DNA of 64,000 nt, taken from contig OX439046.1 in assembly GCA_949317995.1 (NCBI GenBank), positions 77,602,934 to 77,666,933 of the forward strand, read 5' to 3'. Shown piece after piece: positions 1-59,815 of this stretch; position 1 is the first letter of the stretch, and every line of letters starts with the position of its first letter. The stretch is from Acholoe squamosa. Its lineage: Eukaryota > Annelida > Polychaeta > Phyllodocida > Polynoidae. A program made the position numbers and the translations under genes. A model generated the notes under the pieces. That model searched no databases, was not told where the DNA came from, and saw only the letters and a list, made by a program, of their open reading frames with translations.

Positions 1-2481
1 CAGAGCTTCAATGCTCACCGGAGGAAGGCAGAAAGAACGCCCATTGACTTTGGCAACAACAGAGATGAAGACTACAACCTAAAGTTCTCAATGGATGAGC
101 TGAAGACAGCCCTGGGGAGCAGTAACAACAGTTGCCCAGGTCCAGACAACATCCCTTATGAGTTCCTACGACAGCTACCAGAACCCTCGAAACAGTGTTT
201 GCTTGGTATCATGAATAACATTTGGGAAACAGGTACCTTTCCGCCACACTGGCGAGAGGCCATAGTGCTTCCATTCCCAAAACCAAGCAAAGACTTGTCA
301 AACCCAAAGAACTATAGACCCATAGCTCTAACGAGCTGCATCTGCAAAACCCTCGAAAGAATGGTAAACACCAGACTGGTCTGGTACCTAGAAAAGAAAA
401 AGATCCTTAAGACAGAGCAATGTGGCTTCAGAAAGGGTCGCTCGACACAGGATGCCCTAACTACCCTCGAGACCTATGTACGAGATGCCTTTATAAATAA
501 GGAGCAAGTGGTAGCAGTCTTCTTTGATCTGGAGAAGGCGTATGATACCACCTGGCAATATGGTATCCTTAAGGACCTCAAAGATGCAGACCTGAAAGGT
601 CGGCTCCCTCATTTCATCAACCAATACCTATCAAACCGTTGCTTCAGGATCAGAGTAAACAACATCCACTCTGATGTCTTCAATCAGGAGTCTGGAGTTC
701 CACAGGGAGGCATTCTCTCAGTGACCCTATTTCTATTGAAGATCAACAACATCGTCTCTAAACTGGAACTGAAGCCAGAGATAGGCCGAACATTATATGT
801 TGATGATTTCTTCATGTGTTTCCGTGGCAAGAGCCTGAGAACCATTGAACGACACCTCCAACTTGCCATAGATGAAACAGTGAAGTGGGCAGACCAAAAT
901 GGCTTCCGATTTTCTCTAGACAAGACATCAGTTATGCACTTCCACTACCGCACTACAACAGACAGACAACCAAATATTGAAATCAACAAGAAACGTATTT
1001 CTGTAGTGGAAAATACCAAATTCCTTGGGCTAGTCATAGATCGCAAACTTATCTTTGATAAACATATTAAGTACCTCAAGGATAAATGTAACAAAGCTTT
1101 CAACCTACTGAAAGTAGTGGCACATCCATGCTGGGGTGGAGACCAGGACACACTCCTCAAACTATATAGAGCACTGGTCCAGTCTCAACTGGACTATGGT
1201 CTGTGTATTTATGGATCAACCTGGGCGACATACCTAGCAATGGCAGAGCGGATCCAGAGCCATGGACTCCGCATTTGTTTGGGAGCATTCAGAACATCCA
1301 GAATTAAGAGTTTGCAAGTCGCTGCTAGAGAACTACCCTTAGCCCTTAGACGAGAGAAACTCTCCCTTGATTATGCTATCCGGATTGCCACAAATCTTAA
1401 CAACCCAGCCGCAGCATTGTTGACAAACCCCAAGCACAAGGCAAAATATGAAGCAAAGAAGAACCAATACATTGCACCCCTTCGGGTGAGGGTATCCCAC
1501 CTATTAGAAGAAGCGGGAATGTCTCTGGATAATGTACTTAATGTAGAGTACCCGGAAAAGCCCCAATGGACATATCACAAACCAGAGGTCAGAATGGACC
1601 TTACCGCGCTTAAGAAAGGGGTAACATCTAGCACCACATATCAAGCAGCATTCAATGAACTGCGTGACAGTTACAGAGATCACGTACCAATCTACACCGA
1701 CGGATCACATATGGCAGACAAAACAGCATCTGCAGCCGTTCTAGGACCTCATGCCTTCAAAGAACGCCTGCCAGACGAAGCCTCCATCTACACAGCAGAG
1801 CTACATGCATTATACCTAGCACAAGATCACATTGAGACATCAGAAGGCAACAACTACCTGATTGTATCTGACTCCAAATCATCACTGTCAGCAATGCAGC
1901 ATAGCAAGTGGACACACCCTCTCGTGAAAAGAGTGTTGGAACGACACAATAGTCTTGCTCTAGCTGGAAAGAAGATAACGTATGCTTGGGTACCAGGCCA
2001 TGAAGGAATCCATGGCAATGACCTAGCAGACGTTGCTGCCAAGGATGCAACAAATCAAGTTCCAATAGATATGCCTCTACCATCAGAGGACCTCAAACGG
2101 AAAATCAGGAAATACATCCAACAAAAGTGGCAAGAGTTATGGGACGCTGAAAGACATAATAAACTTTACAAAATACAGCCCAAGATAGGCACAACCAAGA
2201 AAGCCAAATGCAAGAGCAGAAGAGAAGAAATTGTCATGAACAGACTAAGAATAGGCCACACCAGACTAACGCATTCACACCTCATGAAGAGAGAACCCAG
2301 ACCGCTTTGCAACAGGTGTCAAAAACACCTGACGGTGGAACATTTCCTTGTGGAATGTAGCCAGTGCCCCATGAGGGCACAATACCATCAATGTACAACA
2401 CTGAAAGAGTTATTTGATACCTGCAGACCGGATACAATACTTGCATATGTCAAGAACCTGGGATACTACAGTCAAATTTAA
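1..2481 (+). CDS. Non-LTR retrotransposon ORF2, 5'-truncated by window edge (reverse transcriptase + RNase H)
   Basis: The frame is open from base 1 to a TAA at 2481, so the start lies outside the window; the first ATG is at 91. Counting residues from that Met: RT fingers and palm lie at about 35-300. Motif A is FFDLEKAYD (first Asp at 146), the motif B region reads SGVPQGGILS, and the catalytic YVDD is at 236-239. An RNase H domain follows at about 530-670, with YTDGS (Asp537), the Glu of YTAELHAL, the Asp of VSDSKSSL and the Asp of GNDLAD, i.e. a complete D-E-D-D set. The C-terminus carries a zinc-knuckle-like C-x2-C...H...C segment (LCNRCQKHLTVEHFLVEC). RT plus RNase H without an integrase fits the I/Jockey-type non-LTR groups; the exact clade is not assigned. 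The endonuclease domain would lie upstream, outside the window. No internal stop or frameshift was seen, so the copy looks young. Confidence 0.95.
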   Translation, partial: QSFNAHRRKAERTPIDFGNNRDEDYNLKFSMDELKTALGSSNNSCPGPDNIPYEFLRQLPEPSKQCLLGIMNNIWETGTFPPHWREAIVLPFPKPSKDLSNPKNYRPIALTSCICKTLERMVNTRLVWYLEKKKILKTEQCGFRKGRSTQDALTTLETYVRDAFINKEQVVAVFFDLEKAYDTTWQYGILKDLKDADLKGRLPHFINQYLSNRCFRIRVNNIHSDVFNQESGVPQGGILSVTLFLLKINNIVSKLELKPEIGRTLYVDDFFMCFRGKSLRTIERHLQLAIDETVKWADQNGFRFSLDKTSVMHFHYRTTTDRQPNIEINKKRISVVENTKFLGLVIDRKLIFDKHIKYLKDKCNKAFNLLKVVAHPCWGGDQDTLLKLYRALVQSQLDYGLCIYGSTWATYLAMAERIQSHGLRICLGAFRTSRIKSLQVAARELPLALRREKLSLDYAIRIATNLNNPAAALLTNPKHKAKYEAKKNQYIAPLRVRVSHLLEEAGMSLDNVLNVEYPEKPQWTYHKPEVRMDLTALKKGVTSSTTYQAAFNELRDSYRDHVPIYTDGSHMADKTASAAVLGPHAFKERLPDEASIYTAELHALYLAQDHIETSEGNNYLIVSDSKSSLSAMQHSKWTHPLVKRVLERHNSLALAGKKITYAWVPGHEGIHGNDLADVAAKDATNQVPIDMPLPSEDLKRKIRKYIQQKWQELWDAERHNKLYKIQPKIGTTKKAKCKSRREEIVMNRLRIGHTRLTHSHLMKREPRPLCNRCQKHLTVEHFLVECSQCPMRAQYHQCTTLKELFDTCRPDTILAYVKNLGYYSQI

Positions 2482-5815: not shown

Positions 5816-6358
5816 TTATTCTTCTACAGCATACTTTCTGCATCTAACCAGTTCTGTGTAGAATTCATGGTGGAGGTAAAATAGAGCTAGATATGGGTAA
5901 TCAATACAAGGCTAACAGTGGTAATGCGGTGCTCGTCGTGAGTAAATAAAGGCGCAGTCTGCTCCTAGTCTGCTGCCAGCTTACTCAGCGCCCTGTGCCT
6001 ATAGTGTCAGACACTGTTTGAACTGTGACTTTGATACGTATGATACCATACTTGGTCACTGCGCGAAGTATAGTGACGCGCTGGTTTGAAGAACATTTGA
6101 GGCTGCTAAATAGTTCAAATTTGTTCAGAACAACAGAACATTGTCATGTTGTAATTATGATTGGTTAGCAAACACTTGTGCAAACACAGAGTTTTGACAT
6201 GATTTGAAACAGTTAATGGATAATGCTTCTGATTTTGGTGTATTTATCCCTATACCCACCATCTGGTCTTTCCATATTGTCTAATAGACATGCTAGATAA
6301 AAACTCCTTTTTATGACTCAATAATAAGGACGCTTTCTTTTGTATTTCTATTTCCCAG
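5816..6358 (+). other. Probable SLCO intron sequence
   Basis: Unique AT-rich sequence ending in a good 3' splice site (tctatttcccag at 6347-6358). No exon recognised inside it. Confidence 0.55.
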
Positions 6359-6554
6359 GTCTAACGATGTAGTGGAGGTGATCCAGGTACATTACAAAGA
6401 AAACTTAACATCAGCGTGTAACAACCAGTGTGCGTGTAGTCAGGCTGGGTACCAGCCGGTGTGTGGACATGACCATAAGACATACTTCAGTCCCTGCCAT
6501 GCGGGGTGTACCAACCTACATGTCTACACCACACCAGAGGGCATGACTGTCAGG
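6359..6554 (+). CDS. SLCO exon: Kazal-like extracellular loop
   Basis: The acceptor is tttcccag|G, and the first base completes a codon (phase 2 entry). The exon ends GTCAGG|GTAAGG in phase 0. It encodes VVEVIQVHYKENLTSACNNQ and then the Cys-rich Kazal-like core with PVCG and SPCHAGC. One N-glycosylation sequon (NLT) precedes the first Cys. Confidence 0.9.
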
Positions 6555-6753
6555 GTAAGGATTAACAGATTTACTTGGAGATTTTTTCTTTGCATTTGCA
6601 TCAATTCTTCTAGATAAAAAAGAAAAAAAAATATAAAAGTGATCCTCTATTTTGGGTGTAAGCGGGACTAGATCTGGTTCTGGTTACATACACTGTTAAG
6701 TTCTAGACTCCTATTGCCCAGTTGTGTTTTTATTATAGTTTAAAAAAAAACAG

Positions 6754-6810
<57 letters not shown>

Positions 6811-6925
6811 ATCCATCCTTAATTTTTATAATGCATACAAGTTTATCAATTCGTATTGTGTATCTCAAACCACAAGGCATTTGCATCTATCTCCATGTTA
6901 CACTACATATATCTCCATGATACAC

Positions 6926-6957
<32 letters not shown>

Positions 6958-9746
6958 TGTTACACTGCATATATCTCCATGTTACACTACATATATCTCC
7001 ATGTTACACTACATCTATCTCCATGTTACACTACATATATCTCCATGATACACTATATATATATCTCCATGTTACACTGCATATATCTCCATGTTACACT
7101 ACGTCTATCTCTATGTTACACTACGTCTATCTCCATGTTACACTGCATATATCTCCATGTTACACTACATCTATGTCCATGTTACATTACATCTATCTCC
7201 ATGTTACACTACGTCTATCTCCATGTTACACTGCATATATCTCCATGTTACACTACATATATCTCCATGTTACACTACATCCATCTCCATGTTACACTAC
7301 ACTTATCTCCATGTTACACTACATCTATCTCCATGTTACACTATGTCTATCTCCATGTTACACTGCATATATCTCCATGTTACACTATATCTCCATGTTA
7401 CACTACATTTATCTCCATGTTACACTACGTCTATCTTCATGTTACACTGCATATATCTCCATGTTACACTGCACTTATCTCCATGTTACACTACATCTCT
7501 CTCCATGTTACACTGCATATATCTCCATGTTACACTACATCTATCTCCATGTTACACTGCATCTATCTCCCTGTTACACTACATATATCTCCATGTTACA
7601 CTGCATATATCTCCATGTTACACTGCACTTATCTCCATGTTAAACTACGTCTATCTCCATGTTACACTACATCTACATGTTACACTACATATATCTCCAT
7701 GTTTCACTGCATATATCTCCATGTTACACTACGTCTATCTCCATGTTACACTACATCTATCTCCATGTTACACTACATCTATCTCCATGTTACACTACAT
7801 ATATCTCCATGTTACACTACATCTATCTCCATGTTACACTACATATATCTCCATGATACACTATATATATATCTCCATGTTACACTACATCTATCTCCAT
7901 GTTACACTGCATCTATCTCCATGTTACACTACATATATCTCCATGTTACACTACATCTATCTCCATGTTACACTGCATCTATCTCCCTGTTACACTACAT
8001 CTATCTCCATGTTACAGTACACTTATCTCCATGTTACACTACATCTATCTCCATGTTACACTGTATATATCTCCATGTTACACTACGTCTATGTCCATGT
8101 TACACTGCATATATCTCCATGTTACACTGCATATATCTCCATGTTACACTACATCTATCTCTATGTTACACTACGTCTATCTCCATGTTACACTACACAT
8201 ATCTCCATGTTACACTATATCTATCTCTATGTTACACTACATCTATCTCCATGTTACACTACATCTATCTCCATGTTACACTACATATATCTCCATGTTA
8301 CACTATATCTATCTCCATGTTACACTACATATATCTCCATGTTACACTACATCTATCTCCATGTTACACTACATATATCTCCATGTTACACTACATCTAT
8401 CTCCATGTTACACTAAGTCCATCTCCATGTTACACTACATTTATCTCCATATTACACTGCATATTTCTCAATGTTACACTACGTCTATGTCCATGTTACA
8501 CTGCATATATAGATGTAGTGTCCATGTTATACTACATATATCTCCATGTTACACTACATCTATCTCCATGTTACACTACATCTATCTCCATGTTATACTA
8601 CATCTATCTCCATGTTACACTGCATATATCTCCATGTTAAACTACATATATCTCCATGTTACACTACGTCTATCTCCATGTTACACTACATATATCTCCA
8701 TGTTACACTACATATATGTCCATGTTACACTACATATATCTCCATGTTACACTGCATATATCTCCATGTTACACTACATATATCTCCATGTTACACTACA
8801 TCCATCTCCATGTTACACTAAGTCTATCTCCATGTTACACTACATATATGACCAAATACTTCATTACAGAACTACTCAGCGTGTGCGTGTATCTACGAGG
8901 ACTTCATACACCAGGCGTCAGTGGCCAGTATGGGGCGGTGTGAGAAGGGGTGTTATAACCTCATCCCGCTACTCTCTATCCTCTTTCTCGTTGTGTTCAT
9001 AACCTGCCTCGGTCAGAATCCGTCTCTCCTCATCACACTCAGGTCTGTCGATGCAGGCTCACGCAGCTTTGCACTCGGCATGCAGAACGTCCTATGTAGG
9101 CTACTCGGTGAGTACCGATTTAATATATTTGTAAAAATGGTTTATAGAAATGCACATTTGAATTTTTTAGTTCACAATAGGGAATTAAAAGTATGAAATG
9201 AATTATTGTGGATAACATTTTCCCCAATATTCATGAGCACATTTATTGTCTCAGAAATCAAGCTTTCGTTTTTCATAATCATGATGATCTAGAGAAAGTA
9301 TATAGCCCTGTCCTAAATTTTATTAGACTTAGACATTTTTCCCAACATAATTATGATGTATTTTTTTCTTGTATTCCCCCACAGCCTTCATTCCAGCACC
9401 GATCTACTTTGGGCGTATCTTTGACTCTACATGTATGCTGTTTGCGGCCAGTTGTGACAACAGTGGGGCGTGTTTGGAGTACAACATTAAACGTCTCCCA
9501 TTTGTCTTATTTGGTGCCTGCCTTGTGCTGAAACTACTCACCTTTGTATTCCTACTCATGACGTACTTATCTGTGCGCTACTCATCAAGAAAGGCCTCGT
9601 ATGATGTAACTTTGGATGTAGAGCCAGGTGGCAGTAATAAACACACGATGGTAACAACGCCGGATACAGACGTGTCGATGGTGAGCTCAGTGTGTACCAC
9701 CAGTTATTCACAACAGACTATCACAGAAAACCAGCCCTGTATATAA
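6359..9746 (+). CDS. Solute carrier organic anion transporter (SLCO/OATP) family member, 3' part of gene (three coding exons)
   Basis: Exons 6359-6554, 8870-9107 and 9385-9746 join in frame with phases 0 and 1. The product is the C-terminal third of a 12-TM OATP. In order: a Kazal-like extracellular loop (CNNQCACSQAGYQPVCG, then TYFSPCHAGC); the continuation ACACIYEDF...MGRCEKGCYN; TM10 (LIPLLSILFLVVFITCLG) followed by QNPSLLITLRSV; the signature joining exons 2 and 3, RLLAFIPAPIYFGRIFDSTC; then TM12 (RLPFVLFGACLVLKLLTFVF) and a cytoplasmic tail. OATPs are sodium-independent plasma-membrane transporters of bile salts, steroid conjugates, eicosanoids and similar anions. The subtype and substrate cannot be told from this part. 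Exons for TM1-9 were not found and are presumably upstream of the window or unrecognised within 2574-6300. Confidence 0.92.
6756..6807. repeat. (TA)n microsatellite
   Basis: About 26 uninterrupted TA dinucleotides in the intron after the SLCO Kazal exon, just before the 22-bp array. Confidence 0.97.
6883..8850. repeat. 22-bp minisatellite, about 88 copies (core CTCCATGTTACACTAC)
   Basis: Tandem 22-bp units of the form ATATATCTCCATGTTACACT plus AC/GC, with a CATCTATCTCC variant. It fills almost the whole SLCO intron between 6554 and 8870. Because 22 is not a multiple of 3 and the unit has no stop, all three plus frames stay open for hundreds of codons. These frames are not genes. Confidence 0.97.
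8870..9107 (+). CDS. SLCO exon: end of Kazal loop, TM10 and TM11 start
   Basis: The acceptor is cttcattacag|AAC and the donor CTACTCG|GTGAGT (phase 0 in, phase 1 out). It begins NYSACACIYEDFIHQASVAS and ends FALGMQNVLCRLL. The 22-bp minisatellite stops only about 20 bp before this acceptor. Confidence 0.92.
9385..9746 (+). CDS. SLCO terminal coding exon: TM11-TM12 and C-tail
   Basis: The acceptor is attcccccacag|CC (phase 1) and the stop is TAA at 9744-9746. It encodes FIPAPIYFGRIFDSTCMLF, a Cys-containing loop (SCDNSGACLEYN), TM12, then about 60 residues of polar tail ending NQPCI. No AATAAA was found close downstream, so the end of the 3' UTR is not placed. Confidence 0.92.
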
Positions 9747-18912: not shown

Positions 18913-19271
18913 TCATTTTCTGCTAGGGCAGTTTTCCTCATCAGATCCATCCCTACAGTTCATGCGTCCGTCACACACCTGCCGGGCGTCAATACACACA
19001 TGGTTGTCACACTTAAACTGGTGTCCATGACACTCGTAGTTCTTACAGTCCTCTTCATCTGTTCCGTCTTCACAGTCCGCGTACCCATCGCACACCCAGT
19101 GTGTGCGGATACATTTACCATCACCACACAGGAAGTCGTCATGTTTACACAAGGGCCCCGTGGTACAGTTGGCTTCATCTGATCCATCAACGCAGTTATT
19201 GGTGTTGTCACAAACTGCCGACAAGGGCACACACTGGTTGTCCCCACAGTTATACTGCCCCTCACATGGTT
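18913..19271 (-). CDS. LDLa gene exon 4 (terminal): LDLa repeats 2-4
   Basis: The acceptor on the minus strand is ttatacctcag|AA (phase 1) and the stop is TGA at 18913-18915. It begins [20 protein letters not shown] and ends [12 protein letters not shown]. Three full six-Cys repeats are present. Confidence 0.92.
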
Positions 19272-21433
19272 CTGAGGTATAATTAAACACATACTTGTTT
19301 TTAACACATAATATTATTACTTTAAATTCTACCTATCAATTTAGTAAAAGTCCTTATCTCTTGAGGAATTGTGATTATTTTGTTAGGCAAAATCTTTCTT
19401 TTGTAAGACCATGTCCTAATTTTGGAAGGCAGTGTCCTTATTTTGGAAGGCAATGTCCTAATTTTAGAAGTCAAAGTCTTTATTTTGTAAGGCACTGTCT
19501 TTATTTTGTTAGTCAAAGTCCTTATTTTGTAAGGCAATATCCTAATTTCATAAGGCAAAATCCATATTTTTGTAAGGCAATGTCCTAATTTTGTAAGTCA
19601 CAGTCCTTATTTTGTAAGGCAGAGTTCTTATTTTGGAATGCAATGTCCTAGTTTTGTAAGTCAAATTCCTCATTTGGTAAGACAAAGTTATTTTGTAGGA
19701 AAATATGGAGAGGCAACAAATTAGGGCAGAGACATATAAGATGGCAGAGAGGGAGAAGTGAGGGAGGATGAAGACCCATTTGATGACCTGCGCTACAACA
19801 CACCACTTGAGTGGTTATCAATTTCTACCTGGGATTCGTCCAAGCCTGCAGTATTCCTCCACTTCATCTGATTCATCAGCACAGTCTGCCGCACCGTCAC
19901 AAAGCCATGTCTTGGTGATACACTTCCAACCCGTTCCACACTTAAACTCATCCTCACCACACTGCAGGGCTGTTAGAATCAGAAGTTTTACTGTAAGTAT
20001 GCGAGGTTTTACTGCAGAGCTGTAAGAATCAGAGGTTTAAATGTAAGTATGAGAGGTTTTACTGCAGGGCTGCAAGTATCAGAGGTTTTACTGTAAGTAT
20101 GAGAGGTTTTACTGCAGGGCTGCAAGTATCAGAGGTTTTACTGTAAGTATGAGAAGTTTTACTTTAAGTATGAGAGGTTTAACTGTATCAGAGAAATTTT
20201 GCTGTAAGTATGAGAGGTTTTGCTGTAAGTATGAGAGGTTTTACTGTAAGTATGAGAGGTTTTACTGCAGGGCTGCAAGTATCAGAGGTTTTACTGTAAG
20301 TATGAGAGATTTTACTGCAGGGCTGCAAATATTACAGGTTTTACTGTAAGTATGAGAGGTTTTACTGTAAGTATGGGAGTTTGTACTGCAGGGCTGCAAG
20401 TATGAGAGGGTTTGCTGCACGGCTGCAAGTATCAGAAGTTTTACTGTAAGTATGAGAGATTTTACTGCAGGGCTGCAAGTGTTACAGGTTTTACTGTAAG
20501 TATGAGAGCTTTTACTGTAAGTATGAGAGGTTTTACTGCAGGGCTGCAAGTATGAGAGGTTTTACTGTAAGTATGACAGGTTTTACTGTAAGTATGACAG
20601 GATTTACTGCAGGGCTGCAAGTATCAGGGGTTTTGGTACACTTTATCAACACAGCAAGAACCCATGACTTTTCAAAGAAGTTAGTAATAAAGATTTGCTT
20701 TTTTTCTCAGGTTTGGGTGACAAGAACGTAGATATGATATTAGCATCTTGCAATGTAGCATAGGTCTACATATTCTATATGCCATTTAAAGAGGATTAAG
20801 GGGCATGTCCTGAGGACAATTCTGCCTGCTATTTTGGTCACCTTGTGAATAAATGACAAAGTTCAGCATATAAGTCTATATTGGTTTCCTGGGACCGTAG
20901 CTTACATTCATGGGGTTCTTCCTCTCCACATTCGTCACATACGCTGCCCTGGTAGTCTGCAGACTTTACCCAGACTGTTTTATCATCCACCGACTTCCCT
21001 GCAGTAAAACAATAAATACCATATACATATATGTAGAATATAAACTGTATATAATTATGTAAGGCTCCCCTGGTGGTCTGCAGACTTTGCCCAGATGGCT
21101 TTATTATCCAGCGACTTCCCTGCATTAAAACAATAAGTACCATATGAAAGTAGAATATAAACTGTATATAGTTATGTAAGGGTGCCCTGGTACTGTGTCC
21201 TCATCCACCACATTGCGGGCTTCCCTAGCCCACTGAAAAGGGTCTATAACTCTTTCCTATCCCCTCGGATGTGTGTGGTGCACATATGTGCGGGCACTGA
21301 CACATTCCCCTGTGAAATTGTGTAATGTAGTTCTTACCTTGAATATGACCTTAGCTGTCGAAATGGCGTTAAACATCTATTACTCACTCACTCACTCCAC
21401 CGCATTGCCTCCAGTAATGAAAAAAGGTCGTTA

Positions 21434-31609: not shown

Positions 31610-32488
31610 GTTAACTCCGCATGTCAGCTGCAATTTAAGTTACCAATTGTTATAAGCTGCCTTGACTACGGCTGTGAGATATGGGGCATCACTAAGGGAA
31701 ATTAGGTGGGGAAACTAGAGTCCATACACCTAAGGTACTTAAAATCTATGCTAAGTGTTAGGAAGCAGACAACAACAGCTGCAGGATATGCTGATACAGG
31801 GAGGGTACCGCTAAAAGTGCAATGGAAAATTCGAGAACTCAGGTACTGGGAAATAATTGTAAATCTCCAGGAGTCACACATATTACATAAATGCTATAGG
31901 AAACTTACTTTGCTTGAAACTGGTGGTCAGATTAATTGGTGTAGTAATGTTAAAGACTTGTTGAACTCACTGTGTGAGCGATTTACTCAGCTCTGGGTAG
32001 AACAGGCAACTTGTGATGACCCTAAAGCTTTAACTGCTGTAACTGAACCGATAAATAGGAAGTATATAGAAAAAATAATGAATGAAATAACATCAGCTGG
32101 TGAAGGGAAAAAACTAAGAACATACAAAATATTCAAAACTGAGTTTAAACTTGAAAGTTATCTACCCTGTATCCCTAACCAAGCGCACCATGCAGCGTTA
32201 GCTCGGTTCAGACTCAGCTCTCACAACCTGGGTATAGAAACAGGAAGGCATTGTGAGCCTCCAAAACCTGTGTGTGATCGGATTTGTCTATATTGTTCTA
32301 GTGGCCATGTAGATGATGAAATTCATTTTCCCATCCAATGTGACTTTCATAGTGTATCAAAGCAATTGTTAGACAATGTTATGAATGAGAAAAACCAAAA
32401 CTATCAATTGAATGATATAGAGAAATTCACTTCTACTATGAACGGCATTGATATCGATTTCATCAAAGCTCTTGCCAAGTTTATGTAG
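31610..32488 (+). pseudogene. Decayed non-LTR retrotransposon, C-terminal fragment
   Basis: In the frame of the long open stretch 31706-32488, the preceding codons read CLDYGCEIWGITKGN and then a TAG at 31703. After it come KLESIHLRYLKSMLSVRKQT and a C-terminal Cys/His region (ICLYCSSGHVDDEIHF). YGCEIWG followed by a LRYLKSMLSVRK-type segment is the usual region after the RT domain in several invertebrate non-LTR elements. No RT catalytic motifs remain, and the copy is 5'-truncated with an in-frame stop. It differs from the LINE at 1-2573: no RNase H. Confidence 0.75.
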
Positions 32489-33005: not shown

Positions 33006-33308
33006 ATGCTGCGTGCCATTTACCGCAGTTTGGGAGGCTCACAGAGTGCTCGCAGCCCAAATAATGAACAGGCAAGTGTGACACACGTGTATACCAATGA
33101 GAGTGACAATGATGTAGATAATACCAGTGCAGTCACACCCAGTGCTCCACTCCTGTCTGCTCAGGGCACACAGCGGCGCCGTCTGACGCGAGCTGAGGCA
33201 ATGGAGCGATTACGAGAGTTGCTCGAGTGTTCGATCTGCCTGGAGGAACTCAATGACCCCCGGGTACTTCCCTGTCACCACTCGTTCTGCCTTCCCTGCC
33301 TGCAGAAG
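33006..33308 (+). CDS. RING gene exon 1: N-terminus and first half of RING1
   Basis: ATG at 33006; donor CTGCAGAAG|GTATGT in phase 0. It encodes a polar, low-complexity N-terminus with TPSAPLL and the first six RING1 ligands (CSICLEELNDPRVLPCHHSF then CLPC). Confidence 0.85.
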
Positions 33309-36300
33309 GTATGTATCACCCTGTCAAATAATATATAGTGGAACATGAGCAGTACCATATTTCACCTTATAAGTGATGAAGAATATATGGCAGAACATGA
33401 GCAATACCGTATTCTACCTAATAAGTGCCCAGGGCACTTGAAAAGATCTATGTTAGTTCAAAATCATGAAAATTAGGCCTTTTTCTAGTCTGTAAATGGT
33501 TCCAAATAGGGGGGGGGGTGCTTATTAGGGGGAGGGTGATTATTAGGTGGAATATGATACATCTACTTAGCAGAGAACTGTATTTTAGATACGTCAAAGG
33601 CCACACAGTGGATGTTTTCCTATGAATATGTTGAGGCCAGTTACAACCATTATTTTTCTTTGCTAAAATGGTTTCCTGTTTATCATTATTGATAAGACAA
33701 AATGTGGATTGGGAGCTTTGTGGACTAATGAGAATATTAACTTTATTTATTTTTATTAGCCTTTAATTCCCTTGAGTGTTTGTATCTCTACATATTCCCC
33801 CACATGTGTGTACTAGTACGTTCTATCATAGATCCACCTTGGTGGCAGCAGAGCGTTCAGGTGCCCCAACTGTAACAAAGAGGTGCAGCTAAGACGAGGT
33901 GTGAACGAGTTACCGACAGACTTCAGGGCCAATGCGTTAAGGGAATGTCTGCCTGAGGAGGATGGGGATGAAGTGGTCTGTGATGCTACTAGTACTGGTG
34001 CTAAGCCTGCATTCCATGCATTCAAGTATGGAACACTTTACTTTAAGCTGGCTTTTTTTTTAACAAAGTCTAATAGAATTGAATTTCTAATTTAGGGAGT
34101 ATGTATTATTTAAAATAATCTCATTTTGATTCTGGTTATCAGGCCCATTGCCTTAATGATCAATAGAATGACTATTTTGATATAACTATTTCTTTATTAA
34201 TTTTTGTTTTTAACACTCATTAATTTACTGCAAAATCACAATTATTAGCCAACCACAAGCATAGCCCACACATTAAAGGTATTTGACAAATAAATATTCC
34301 CACAATTTATTGTTTCAAAACCACCATCAATAGGGTGATGAGAGTTTTATATGAAGAAATAAACAAGACTGTCCACACTGTCTAGAAGAAGAAGTTTCAT
34401 CTGAGAATAGTTTCATTTTTCACATTTTTCAGTACATCTGACACAGTGATGGGGATGGTGACGTGCCCGGTATGTGAGGAGATTCTGACAGAGCCGCGGT
34501 GCCTGGACTGTGGTCACTCGTTCTGCCTGGGTTGCCTGGAGTTCATGATGCCAATGAGTGGGTCTACAATACACTGTCCATGCTGCGCTAGTCAGACTGT
34601 TGTACAGGCATGTATAACGTACATAACCTTTCAAATGAGGTGGCACCACCCTAAATCAGGTCACTTCTGGGTAGAATGGTGAAATGCCCACACTAAATTC
34701 AGTTAATTTTCTGTTTCTAGGGCTATAAAATGGGTTATAAACAGGCTGTCTGTGTATTAATTGGCACTATACTTGTCCTGGAGGCTTGGAGAATATTTAA
34801 AAAAAAAATGGAAAAGAATGAAAAAAATTTAGATCATTTACTGCAGACCAAAGGGGCCTATGATACATGTGTGGTGACTCAGGTGGCAGACTACAAAAGT
34901 ATATTGGCAGTTTCTATGACGACTTGTGAAAAATCTGATTGCACTTTGTTATGACAGACCTAGCGTATGATTTTTGCCATTTCAAAGCTACAATCTGGTA
35001 TATTTGGTTTAGTTCTGAGGAAATCTTAAGTATTTGAAATACATGTAGTTTGTCAAGTGCCAGCCGATACTGGATTTTTTCGGATTGCACTGCATTTCTA
35101 GGGTGGTACCACCGTAAGGACCACAAAATGATGCTTATGTATTAACTTGTCAATTTGTATTAACTTGTCAATTTGAATCTAAAAAGCAATGTGGCTCTTC
35201 ATGTATTGTTTTGTTTTTGAAAGATAGAGACCAATGTTTTTAGATTGAATTTTTACCAAATATTCCTTTTGTGGAGATCATTATCGTGAAACATATTTAT
35301 TGCTTTGGCAGAAGATGGAAATATTAATTCATGTCTTTTCCATATGTTACAAGCAATCTTCCTGGCATTTATTTTTCACTTGAACAGGTCTAATGATTAG
35401 ACAAGCACATATTTAAATATCCAATGACATTTATTTGATAAATCAAGGTGAATATCAATCTTATTCGTAGAATGGCGTTGATGCTCTCCCAGTGGATGCA
35501 GCCAAGAATCACATGATGGAGATGTTCTCTGCACCGAGCCCCCCATCTGATGTCACAGCTGCACCGAGTGCCCCATCTGATGTCACAGCTGCACCAAGCG
35601 TCACTACCACTGTACCGCCGCCTTCATTGTACCCAGATCTGACACAGGAGTAAGTATTACTGTACATAGTGTCTTAAGGGAAGAGTCATTTATTGTTAAC
35701 TGGGGGGGGGGGAGGCTCATGGGTTTTAGCATACCACCAAAATTTGGTAGCCTTTTGGACCAACGAGTGGTGTGTGTGCTCCCTCCCCTCAGCGATGCAA
35801 CCTTGAAACTGAATCGTGTAACGGTTCAGGGGCCACCGTTGAAAAAAAAAAAAAAAAAAAAATTTGGTAGAGGTTATCGAAACCCATCTCCCCCATCCCC
35901 CCTCCAAATACGGACTGGTATTGGTGCAAATTACCCCCCAAAACATCGTTAAAACCATAATACCCCACACATGAGTCACACCATGTATAGGGCACACCCC
36001 GCGTGTAGGCATGATAACTTCTGTTCTAATCAATGGATTTTCAAAATCCAAAAATGTTTGAGCACCCCAGAGCCTTCCTTGCCCCCATATACCAGTGTAT
36101 TGCAGTGGGGGAGTCTTAGGACATTTTTAGAAAAAGGATATTCCCCAACATTGCATACAAGGCATGCCTTGTAACAGGGGTATTATGGTATATGCTTGTG
36201 AAATAACAGATTGCCATGAGTACTTGAATCACTCATATTTACTTCTGGCCCCAGAGTGATAGGTTTATGCTCCTTGCCTCTTTTACCAACACCCCTTCCA

Positions 36301-37696
36301 AAAATTGCTCAATTGAGGAGAATATTCATCCTTTGTATATGATGTTTTATCAACCTCTTAGTTGAATTCTTTTCCCACCTTTTTTCCCAATAGGACAATT
36401 CCTGGATATACCGAGGAGCCGACATCTCTCTTACCGCCCCCTCAGCCAAACAACGACAATGCAGACAGACCACAAGACATCGGCTCCATCATAATGAACT
36501 GCCTGCGGGACATCCGGAGTCAGCTTCACATATTTGATGCGGCCATTGTGCGAATGAACACCATTAACATAAACACACTGAGCTACCTGTGCCTCATGTG
36601 CTTCTTTGGTGGAGTCATGGTGGCCAGTGCGGACTGGGAGTCTGGCATGTTAACGCTCGTCCTGTCAGTGCTGACATGGTTTGGACCGCTATTTGTCCTA
36701 ACAGGGGTCCTAGTGCTGGTGTTCGGGCTGTGTAATGCTACAGTGAGAGATGTTGGGGTCCATGAGCGGCAGATGTACGGAGGGTGGATCGGGGGTATAG
36801 TGGGTGCTGAGGTGTTTGTGTACTATTCGGCTACCTCTACACAAGGCTTGTTCTGTGCTGTATCTGGCTCTGTGTTTGGGTGTGTCGCTGTTTGTGTGTC
36901 AGCCATGTCATCCCCGGGACATCAGCAGACAGCGATAAGCTCCCGCGGCTTCATTGAAGGACTGGCCTGGAAGACTCTTCCCTTTGTCATGTTAGGTGGT
37001 GTATATGGAACAGGGATTATAGAGTCTATTCTATTCTTACCCACAGCCTCTGTTGGGGCCTTCATTGGGATGCTTGTGTCCTCCCGAATCTTGGCCTTCT
37101 TTACCAAGAACAATGTATTGATCAAACTCTCTAAGTACAACATATTCACCACACTGAGAGGTGCCGTGCTTGGTAACATTACATCCGCCGTCTTACTACG
37201 CCTCCTACATCCGCGATTTGGGGTCGGACGCTGCCTTATATCAGGAGCAGCATTGGGGACGGGAATAGGACTCATTGTTGGTGATATCTACATGCCATGG
37301 TTAAGGAAACTACTGAGACTACCAGCTGATAATAGTGTAGTAGGTCTTGTACCACACGAGGGGAGCGGAACACAGCGCCGTGTTGTCCTCGCATTAGGGA
37401 CACTTACAGGAGGTGTTCTGGGCTTTGTGACCACCTTACAGATATTTGGGGTGTTGATCGGTGCACTGCTAGGACTGTACTTAGCTGAGCAGGGAATGGA
37501 CTCGTTTAGAATAATCCTCAATGACATACTTAAACTATATGACCACTGTGCCGTGGGAGCGCTGGTTGGAGCCTGTGTGGGATTCCTGGTTGCGCTGAGC
37601 TACAATTCCTCGCTCTGCGGTCCTCTTCTTGGTGTCGTCATAGAAACAGCCATCTTGGAGCTCTATATACAGGACCATGTGAGAGATGACAATTGA
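33006..37696 (+). CDS. Tandem-RING, multi-pass membrane protein (717 aa, five coding exons); probable E3 ubiquitin ligase
   Basis: Exons 33006-33308, 33832-34025, 34433-34607, 35471-35649 and 36394-37696 join in frame with phases 0, 2, 0, 2. RING1 has C75, C78, C90, H92, C95, C98, C112, C115. RING2 has C177, C180, C192, H194, C197, C200, C214, C217. Both are C3HC4 with identical spacing and are followed by similar linkers (GVNELPTDF; NGVDALPVD). Residues 225-284 are Ala/Pro/Ser-rich with a 10-residue repeat, PSAP at 256-259 and LYPDL at 277-281; another PSAP is at 45-48. Residues about 346-708 hold about 12 hydrophobic, Gly-rich segments. RINGs recruit E2 enzymes, so a membrane-anchored ubiquitin ligase is the likely role. 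There is no IBR, B-box or coiled coil. The start ATG (caagATGC) is the first in-frame Met after a predicted acceptor. I do not recognise this full architecture. Confidence 0.85.
33404..33560. mobile_element. MITE with TACCGTATTCTACCTAATAA termini in RING intron 1
   Basis: The left end TACCGTATTCTACCTAATAA and the right end TTATTAGGTGGAATATGATA are inverted copies with three mismatches. A partial relative (ACCATATTTCACCTTATAAG) lies just upstream at 33353. The interior includes a G-run. Confidence 0.75.
33832..34025 (+). CDS. RING gene exon 2: second half of RING1 and linker
   Basis: The acceptor is ttctatcatag|ATC (phase 0) and the donor TTCAA|GTATGG (phase 2). It encodes IHLGGSRAFRCPNCNKEVQL, then RRGVNELPTDFRANALRECL and an acidic stretch. 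The frame continues past the donor into a stop, so the donor is needed. Confidence 0.85.
34433..34607 (+). CDS. RING gene exon 3: RING2
   Basis: The acceptor is cacatttttcag|T (completes Asn). It encodes the whole of RING2 (MVTCPVCEEILTEPRCLDCG, HSFCLGC, HCPCC). The phase that matches exon 4 is reached at GTACAG|GCATGT, a GC-type donor; the alternative GTT|GTACAG is canonical but a poor match. Confidence 0.82.
35471..35649 (+). CDS. RING gene exon 4: Pro/Ala-rich linker
   Basis: The acceptor is ttattcgtag|AAT (phase 0) and the donor ACACAGGA|GTAAGT (phase 2). It begins NGVDALPVDAAKNHMMEMF and contains a 30-bp in-frame tandem repeat (APSPPSDVTA, APSAPSDVTA) followed by PPPSLYPDLTQ. Confidence 0.82.
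35650..36393 (+). other. RING gene intron 4
   Basis: Holds a G-run at 35701, an A-run of about 21 at 35842-35862 between two AATTTGGTAG words, and a short inverted pair (GGTAGCC region). Possibly a degraded transposon. No exon. Confidence 0.5.
36394..37696 (+). CDS. RING gene exon 5: multi-pass membrane domain and stop
   Basis: The acceptor is ttttttcccaatag|G (phase 2) and the stop is TGA at 37694-37696. Hydrophobic segments fall near protein residues 346-363, 370-396, 412-429, 434-454, 479-495, 497-520, 538-556, 563-581, 614-633, 634-649, 669-687 and 690-708. GxxxG-like patterns are frequent (GGWIGGIVGAE, GAALGTGIGLIVGD, GACVGFLVAL). It ends with a short acidic tail. Confidence 0.9.
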
Positions 37697-38070: not shown

Positions 38071-38305
38071 AGGGTAACCCACAAGATACAAGTAAAAGTG
38101 GCACTCTAGGTACATTTTATGCTGGATTAAACAAAACATGGCTTAAAAATTACATAAAGAAGCCATATGATTTGTGTGTGGATCCAGATGTTATTCCACG
38201 TGGGGGGGGGGGGGATTGGGATCAGCATTTTTAGTATGTTAAACTTGAACCACACTGAAATAAACAAAATAATGGATATCTGTGTAAGTACTTGAATATT
38301 ATAGA

Positions 38306-38589: not shown

Positions 38590-39056
38590 AGTCATCCAGC
38601 TGCCTTATGATGCATTAATGCATCATGCCCATTGGTTGTCATGAAGCATTAATGCGTCATGCCCATTGGTTGTCATGACGCATTAATGCGTCATGCCCAT
38701 CGGTTGTCATGACGCATTAATGCGTCATGCCCATCGGTTGTCATGACGCATTAATGCGTCATGCCCATCGGTTGTCATGACGCATTAATGCGTCATGCCC
38801 ATCGGTTGTCATGACGCATTAATGCGTCATGCCCATCGGTTGTCATGACGCATTAATGCGTCATGCCCATCGGTTGTCATGACGCATTAATGCGTCATGC
38901 CCATCGGTTGTCATGACGCATTAATGCGTCATGCCCATCGGTTGTCATGTTGCATGTCCAAAATCCTTGGCAAGCCACTTCTCAGGGCTGCATTGATGTA
39001 TCACGCCAACCAATGGGCATGATGCAATCCTACATAAGCAGCATTGAAAGGGTTGA
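38590..39056. mobile_element. ATGCAT MITE (copy D) with its left arm expanded into an array
   Basis: The left end is CTTATGATGCATTAATGCAT then CATGCCCATTGGTTGTCATG. The right end, in reverse complement, is CAACCCTTTCAATGCTGCTT then ATTGCATCATGCCCATTGG. The left arm's palindrome has been tandemly amplified (next entry). Confidence 0.7.
38606..38950. repeat. 34-bp array, about 10 copies, each with a perfect palindrome
   Basis: The unit is ATGACGCATTAATGCGTCAT (self-complementary) plus GCCCATCGGTTGTC. The first copy has the ancestral GATGCATTAATGCATC form and the later ones the GACGC/GCGTC form. Most copies are identical. Confidence 0.95.
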
Positions 39057-58857: not shown

Positions 58858-58929
58858 TGGAGAAACCTGGACTCGAACCCGGGACCCTCCAGCCTCGAGG
58901 CGGAAGCTCTTCCTCTGAGCTACTTCTCC
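58858..58929 (-). other. tRNA-like sequence, copy 1
   Basis: Minus strand GGAGAAGTAGCTCAGAGGAA ... anticodon loop CTCGAGG ... GGGTTCGAGTCC ... TTTCTCCA. A box and B box fit the RNA polymerase III consensus. The anticodon stem has a C-C mismatch. This copy has one base change that breaks the T stem. Confidence 0.5.
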
Positions 58930-59300: not shown

Positions 59301-59372
59301 TGGAGAAACCGGGACTCGAACCCGGGACCCTCCAGCCTCGAGGCGGAAGCTCTTCCTCTGAGCTACTTCTCC
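59301..59372 (-). other. tRNA-like sequence, copy 2
   Basis: As copy 1 but with an intact T stem (CCGGG / CCCGG) and a paired acceptor stem (GGAGAAG / TTTCTCC). Anticodon CGA without the long variable arm of serine tRNAs, so a tRNA-derived module rather than a working tRNA gene is likelier. Confidence 0.5.
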
Positions 59373-59743: not shown

Positions 59744-59815
59744 TGGAGAAACCGGGACTCGAACCCGGGACCCTCCAGCCTCGAGGCGGAAGCTCTTCCT
59801 CTGAGCTACTTCTCC
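59744..59815 (-). other. tRNA-like sequence, copy 3
   Basis: Identical to copy 2 over the 72 nt. Confidence 0.5.

Follow-up and report, generated by a model that had tools for sequence, protein, structure and literature searches.

RINGs of TRIM ligases usually need help to pair, and RBR ligases such as RNF19 and RNF144 carry two RING-like domains, in some cases together with membrane segments. Membrane attachment is found in many forms among RING ligases: Table 4 of PMC2198940 lists 46 human RING genes whose products have transmembrane parts, MARCH6 is described with an N-terminal RING and several transmembrane segments, and RNF5 with an N-terminal RING and a C-terminal transmembrane part (PMC12765900). 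Within the TRIM family, a transmembrane domain is reported for human TRIM13/TRIM59, and two N-terminal RINGs for carp Trim33 and Trim36 (PMC10048487). We analysed a stretch of 64,000 bases from the polychaete Acholoe squamosa (C12:77602934-77666933, hereafter the window), in which a five-exon gene on the forward strand (33006-37696) is predicted to encode two TRIM-type RINGs followed by a Gly-rich polytopic membrane part. As judged from the DNA, this gene is real and its architecture is unusual; no paper on a tandem-RING polytopic family, or on a tandem-RING invertebrate family, was found in open-licence PMC text.

Gene model and tandem-RING family

The spliced exons (Table 1) give 2154 nt, or 717 residues, all in phase and with zero internal stops, as the initial annotation had proposed. 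Three of the introns are GT-AG, and intron 3 (34608-35470) is best read as GC-AG, with the donor CAG/GCATGT at 34607/34608. A GT donor six bases upstream (34601/34602) would also keep the frame, giving 715 residues. The GC donor is favoured because it lets the RING1-helix and RING2-helix units align gapless with a score of 136 (maximum 53 in 500 shuffles), against 123 with a two-residue gap in the GT version, and because RING2 of the C18 paralogue (L022), open through the donor point of intron 3, also aligns gapless. The open frame that contains exon 5 is 444 codons long. Simulated 64-kb sequences with the dinucleotide make-up of the window (n = 300) had a longest forward-strand frame of 172 codons on average and of 304 codons at most. 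Possible poly(A) signals (AATAAA) are present at 38259 and 39098. A minisatellite with a repeated, ATTAAT-centred inverted repeat, read by eye, occupies 38600-38950, between the stop codon and the second signal.

The presence of two TRIM-type C3HC4 RINGs was confirmed. Pfam RING models scored above cut-off at two stretches (best zf-RING_UBOX, E value 1.6e-17), both stretches have the C3HC4 pattern, and TRIM RINGs are their nearest PDB sequences. Among the best 60 of the 68 PDB sequence matches at E values up to 0.01, RING1 is nearest to TRIM56 and TRIM2, and RING2 to TRIM5, TRIM34 and TRIM31. Both units retain the zinc ligands and the hydrophobic residue between Cys 1 and Cys 2, and the helix-like sequence following RING1 resembles that following RING2, as judged by sequence. 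The stated lack of B-box and IBR domains likewise held: no Pfam B-box match was obtained at E values up to 10, and IBR_1 reached 13.3 bits against a cut-off of 27, its best stretch (residues 188-202) lying inside RING2. The RING-CH type (C4HC3) was not seen either, both units being C3HC4 with no RINGv among the listed Pfam matches.

The tandem arrangement was then found elsewhere in the same genome. A search of its 1,481,437,319 bases (63 contigs) with the N-terminal 246 residues, at E values up to 0.001, gave 80 places (121 candidates, all scored). Thirteen of the 80 rows cover the RING2 side only, one of them being exon 4 of the window gene; at all 12 remaining RING2-type loci, the window and 11 others, a RING1-type match lies upstream on the same strand, a count drawn from 53 of the 80 rows. 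The distance between the two at the 11 further loci is within 3.5 kb in nine and about 22 kb in two. Not every one of these loci counts as independent, since two are neighbours on C1 and another two are found near C12:45 Mb, nor is every one intact, since a RING1 match on C1 holds three stop codons. Since it recurs at 11 further loci, the tandem RING module belongs to a gene family and is not a peculiarity of the window gene. Five paralogues (L022, L033, L035, L036 and L037) have tails of more than 70 residues after RING2; that of L022 runs for 503 residues beyond its last zinc Cys and has no hydrophobic segments. The RING2 exons of L036 (2142-2543) and L037 (3405-4151) end in CTFL and CLTL, where the stops are putative protein ends, and these CxxL endings are possible prenylation signals. 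No open frame with at least four hydrophobic peaks was found beside a RING in L022-L041, in pieces of about 10 kb that miss any exon lying beyond them. A single-RING open frame at L028 (717-1289) has a hydrophobic stretch after its RING, resembling a tail anchor.

The two RINGs of the family differ in the residue that follows the last zinc Cys. Lys or Arg is found there in none of nine RING2 units (Q, S, G, G, A, G, D and S at eight loci, and Ala in the window gene), versus three of eight RING1-side units (seven plus the window, a locus fetched twice being counted once), which suggests RING2 as a helper half.

Partial copies at C12:67.83 and 67.85 Mb keep exon 1-2 sequence together with parts of the introns; over 36,901 bases they show neither a RING2 exon nor a match to exon 4 or exon 5. 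The partial copy L023 has an in-frame stop near the beginning of the matched part of exon 1. Differences in exons 1-2 at codon positions 1/2/3 number 10/1/16 and 10/7/17 against L023, and 5/5/14 against L024. They are thus mostly third-position differences, which indicates past protein-level constraint on exons 1-2, the exons to which this evidence applies.

Table 1. Features of the tandem-RING gene, with positions in the window and residues of the predicted protein.
Feature	Position	Residues	Strand	Content	Basis
Exon 1	33006-33308		+	Start codon, disordered N-terminus, first half of RING1	Open frame, GT donor, third-position excess versus partial copy L023
Exon 2	33832-34025		+	Second half of RING1, helix after RING1	Copies at C12:67.83 and 67.85 Mb
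Exon 3	34433-34607		+	RING2	GC donor preferred; alternative end 34601
Exon 4	35471-35649		+	Helix after RING2, Pro/Ser/Ala-rich linker	First residues resemble helix after RING1
Exon 5	36394-37696		+	Remaining linker, predicted polytopic membrane domain, stop codon	444-codon open frame, one genome match, hydrophobic segments
RING1	33228-33873	75-115	+	Split by intron 1	C3HC4 pattern, Pfam; nearest listed PDB chain TRIM56 5jw7, E 6.5e-11
RING2	34464-34586	177-217	+		C3HC4 pattern, Pfam; nearest listed PDB chain TRIM5 2ecv, E 1.5e-8
PSAP	33138-33149	45-48	+	Possible TSG101 site	In 0.3% of shuffles of residues 1-66
PSAP	35564-35575	256-259	+		In 5.7% of shuffles of residues 241-335
LYPDL	35627-35641	277-281	+	Possible ALIX site	In 0.3% of shuffles
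Hydrophobic Gly-rich part	36572-37666	345-709	+	10-13 segments	Hydropathy peaks and second method

The Gly-rich membrane part

Hydropathy analysis gave 11 peaks in residues 345-709, and an insertion-energy method, which is rough and uses approximate scale values, gave 5, 7, 10 or 13 segments depending on the threshold. The initial count of about 12 segments is thus a fair description within a range of 10-13, but not an exact one, as it shifts with the threshold. The linker that precedes them is Pro/Ser/Ala-rich in exon 4, and a Pro/Glu-rich stretch continues across the junction of exons 4 and 5. Within the membrane part, the stretches starting at residues 617 and 670 resemble each other with a score of 54, beyond the maximum of 41 in 100 local shuffles, which suggests one internal duplication. 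A reading of the whole part as one repeated hairpin was rejected, as only this pair stands out and its profile reached 4.5 bits on the rest, versus up to 7.5 bits for shuffled sequences.

The statement that this domain is unlike recognised ones was borne out in the libraries searched, since no significant match was obtained in Pfam, NCBIfam, PHROGs or PDB sequences. Exon 5 had no sequence match among PDB chains at E values up to 10. A weak NCBIfam match to MscL (E value 0.031; 14.5 bits, the cut-off being 225) and a weak PHROGs match (E value 0.13) were both taken as chance. A scan of viral contigs for a relative of exon 5 returned four stretches by pattern, none of which was confirmed. In the species' own genome, no second copy of exon 5 was found at E values up to 10, a search whose first look gave one candidate, so that split or diverged copies could escape it.

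A proposed RING pair at the membrane

We propose, with a probability of about 0.5, that the gene encodes a membrane-embedded RING-type ubiquitin ligase (E3), in which two RINGs pair within one chain and a Gly-rich domain of about 12 segments selects or feeds in substrates. This proposal draws on the two C3HC4 units whose nearest structures are those of TRIM RINGs, the similar helix-like sequences that follow them, the RING1-then-RING2 order at 12 of 12 loci, the Lys/Arg pattern after the last zinc Cys and the hydrophobic segments. The two TRIM-type RINGs and their flanking helical sequence would lie on the cytosolic, N-terminal side. RING1 and RING2 would pair inside the chain as a closed RING dimer, which TRIM ligases otherwise obtain via their coiled coil, RING1 being the likelier half to activate the ubiquitin-conjugating enzyme (E2), with RING2 in support. 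Both would be connected by a flexible linker to the membrane domain, which may select membrane-protein substrates, or feed them in, for ubiquitination. Helices on both sides of the RING are reported to make a four-helix bundle in self-associating TRIM RINGs, TRIM19 excepted, and TRIM5alpha and TRIM25 to be much more active as tandem RING constructs (PMC7752041); tethering rescued TRIM3 (PMC11992055).

Several observations weigh against this proposal. Tethering did not rescue TRIM15 (PMC11992055), and a tandem construct did not raise the activity of TRIM28, as reported in PMC6487577. RING1 of the window gene has Asn, and not Lys, Arg or His, after its last zinc Cys, which weakens the division into a driving RING1 and a helper RING2, and both RINGs could therefore be weak. 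Single-sequence fold models were too poor to use, with a mean predicted local distance difference test score (pLDDT) of 41.0 for exon 5 (433 residues) and 51.3 for the last 187 residues. The positive-inside test failed, Lys and Arg making up 2 of 28 residues inside hairpins versus 15 of 115 outside (Fisher p 0.53). The raw count of these residues (15 versus 2) was accordingly discarded as a topology signal, being not significant per residue.

A refinement of the proposed membrane ligase, rather than its opposite, is that of an endolysosomal sorting ligase, in which the linker would recruit endosomal sorting complexes required for transport (ESCRT), PSAP binding TSG101 and LYPxL binding ALIX, and so, much like LRSAM1, send ubiquitinated membrane cargo to multivesicular bodies. 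LRSAM1 is a TSG101-binding protein with both a RING and a PSAP/PTAP motif (PMC6364939). The window gene has two PSAP motifs and one LYPDL; among the other loci, C1 has SLYPDLT downstream of RING2, L035 has PPAY twice and L037 has PSAP. However, five motifs were tried in two regions, with single shuffle frequencies of 0.3% to 9%, and the C1 SLYPDLT lies in an open frame whose splicing to the C1 RING2 is putative. As such a motif was present in only two of the ten RING2-exon tails examined among pieces of tandem loci, ESCRT recruitment is a hint that we keep as a side hypothesis, and we consider this refinement rather unlikely.

It is unlikely, too, that the protein is a RING pseudoligase, that is, an adaptor or membrane transporter with both RINGs as scaffolds in a RING-like dimerisation module. 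Neither RING of the window gene has Lys, Arg or His after the last zinc Cys, and TRIM RINGs lacking this linchpin can be inactive (PMC11992055). Against this, neither unit has lost its zinc ligands or the hydrophobic residue between Cys 1 and Cys 2, second codon positions in exon 1 are strongly constrained, and TRIM32 is active despite a Ser after its last zinc Cys, according to the same source.

We infer the join of exon 4 to exon 5 in the transcript from phase and splice signals; a split into two genes, one for a soluble tandem-RING protein that has exons 1-4 and a further, unseen end, the other for a membrane protein encoded by exon 5, would fit the lack of a poly-transmembrane exon at the other fetched loci, the unique match of exon 5 in the genome and a Met inside exon 5 after the Pro-rich stretch, but is improbable given the GTAAGT donor, pyrimidine-rich AG acceptor and in-phase join of intron 4, the linker that continues over the junction, and the lack of any coding-like frame of at least 100 codons on the forward strand at 37.7-45 kb.

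Beyond the proposed ligase itself, we suggest as a tentative and rather doubtful generalisation that an asymmetric TRIM RING pair, covalently tethered, with RING1 driving and RING2 supporting, has evolved in this family and is attached to membranes in various ways, by an orphan polytopic domain in the window gene and by CxxL, possibly prenylated, in L036/L037; the polytopic member would then represent a class of membrane ligase, and a membrane domain, that are both new. With a natural chain that has two diverged TRIM-type RINGs, one could ask whether pairing within the chain takes the place of the coiled coil, and whether a RING can serve solely as helper to another. If the proposal is true, a RING pair joined to a membrane domain unlike those searched would add to the routes by which animals are known to tag membrane proteins.

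Neighbouring features and comparison with known ligases

Elsewhere in the window, exons at 6297-9743 (+), with a coding-like tandem repeat between them, presumably correspond to the C-terminal region of an SLCO organic-anion transporter, with a Kazal-like exon and the last membrane segments. An open frame at 18916-19332 (-) has what we take to be LDLR class A-like repeats, and those at 1-2478 (+) and 31706-32485 (+) are presumably reverse-transcriptase-like, the latter ending some 500 bases upstream of the tandem-RING gene's start codon. Three tRNA-Ser(CGA) predictions on the reverse strand (58858-58929, 59301-59372 and 59744-59815), exactly 443 bases apart, adjoin a long satellite with a strong strand skew.

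The position of the RINGs ahead of the membrane part, which had been regarded as unusual, is already known from MARCH6 and RNF5 (PMC12765900). In MARCH6/Doa10, too, a polytopic membrane part follows an N-terminal RING (PMC12765900), but this is one RING-CH where two C3HC4 RINGs are found here, and exon 5 had no PDB match at the level of sequence. RNF5/RNF185 share an N-terminal C3HC4 RING and a C-terminal membrane part (PMC12765900), with one RING and few membrane segments, unlike the window protein. From RBR ligases the window protein differs in having no IBR above cut-off. With TRIM (RBCC) proteins such as TRIM56, TRIM2/3 and TRIM5, which are its nearest PDB sequences, it shares the RING type and, by sequence, the flanking helices, but it has no Pfam B-box match, does not follow the RBCC order, and has many predicted membrane segments versus one. 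The window gene would thus be a new variant of membrane RING ligase, if its transcript and activity are confirmed. In design it also resembles the engineered tandem TRIM RINGs, in which two RINGs are likewise placed in one chain to force pairing; those are identical, laboratory-made units, whereas here two diverged RINGs, separated by a spacer of about 60 residues, belong to a natural gene family.

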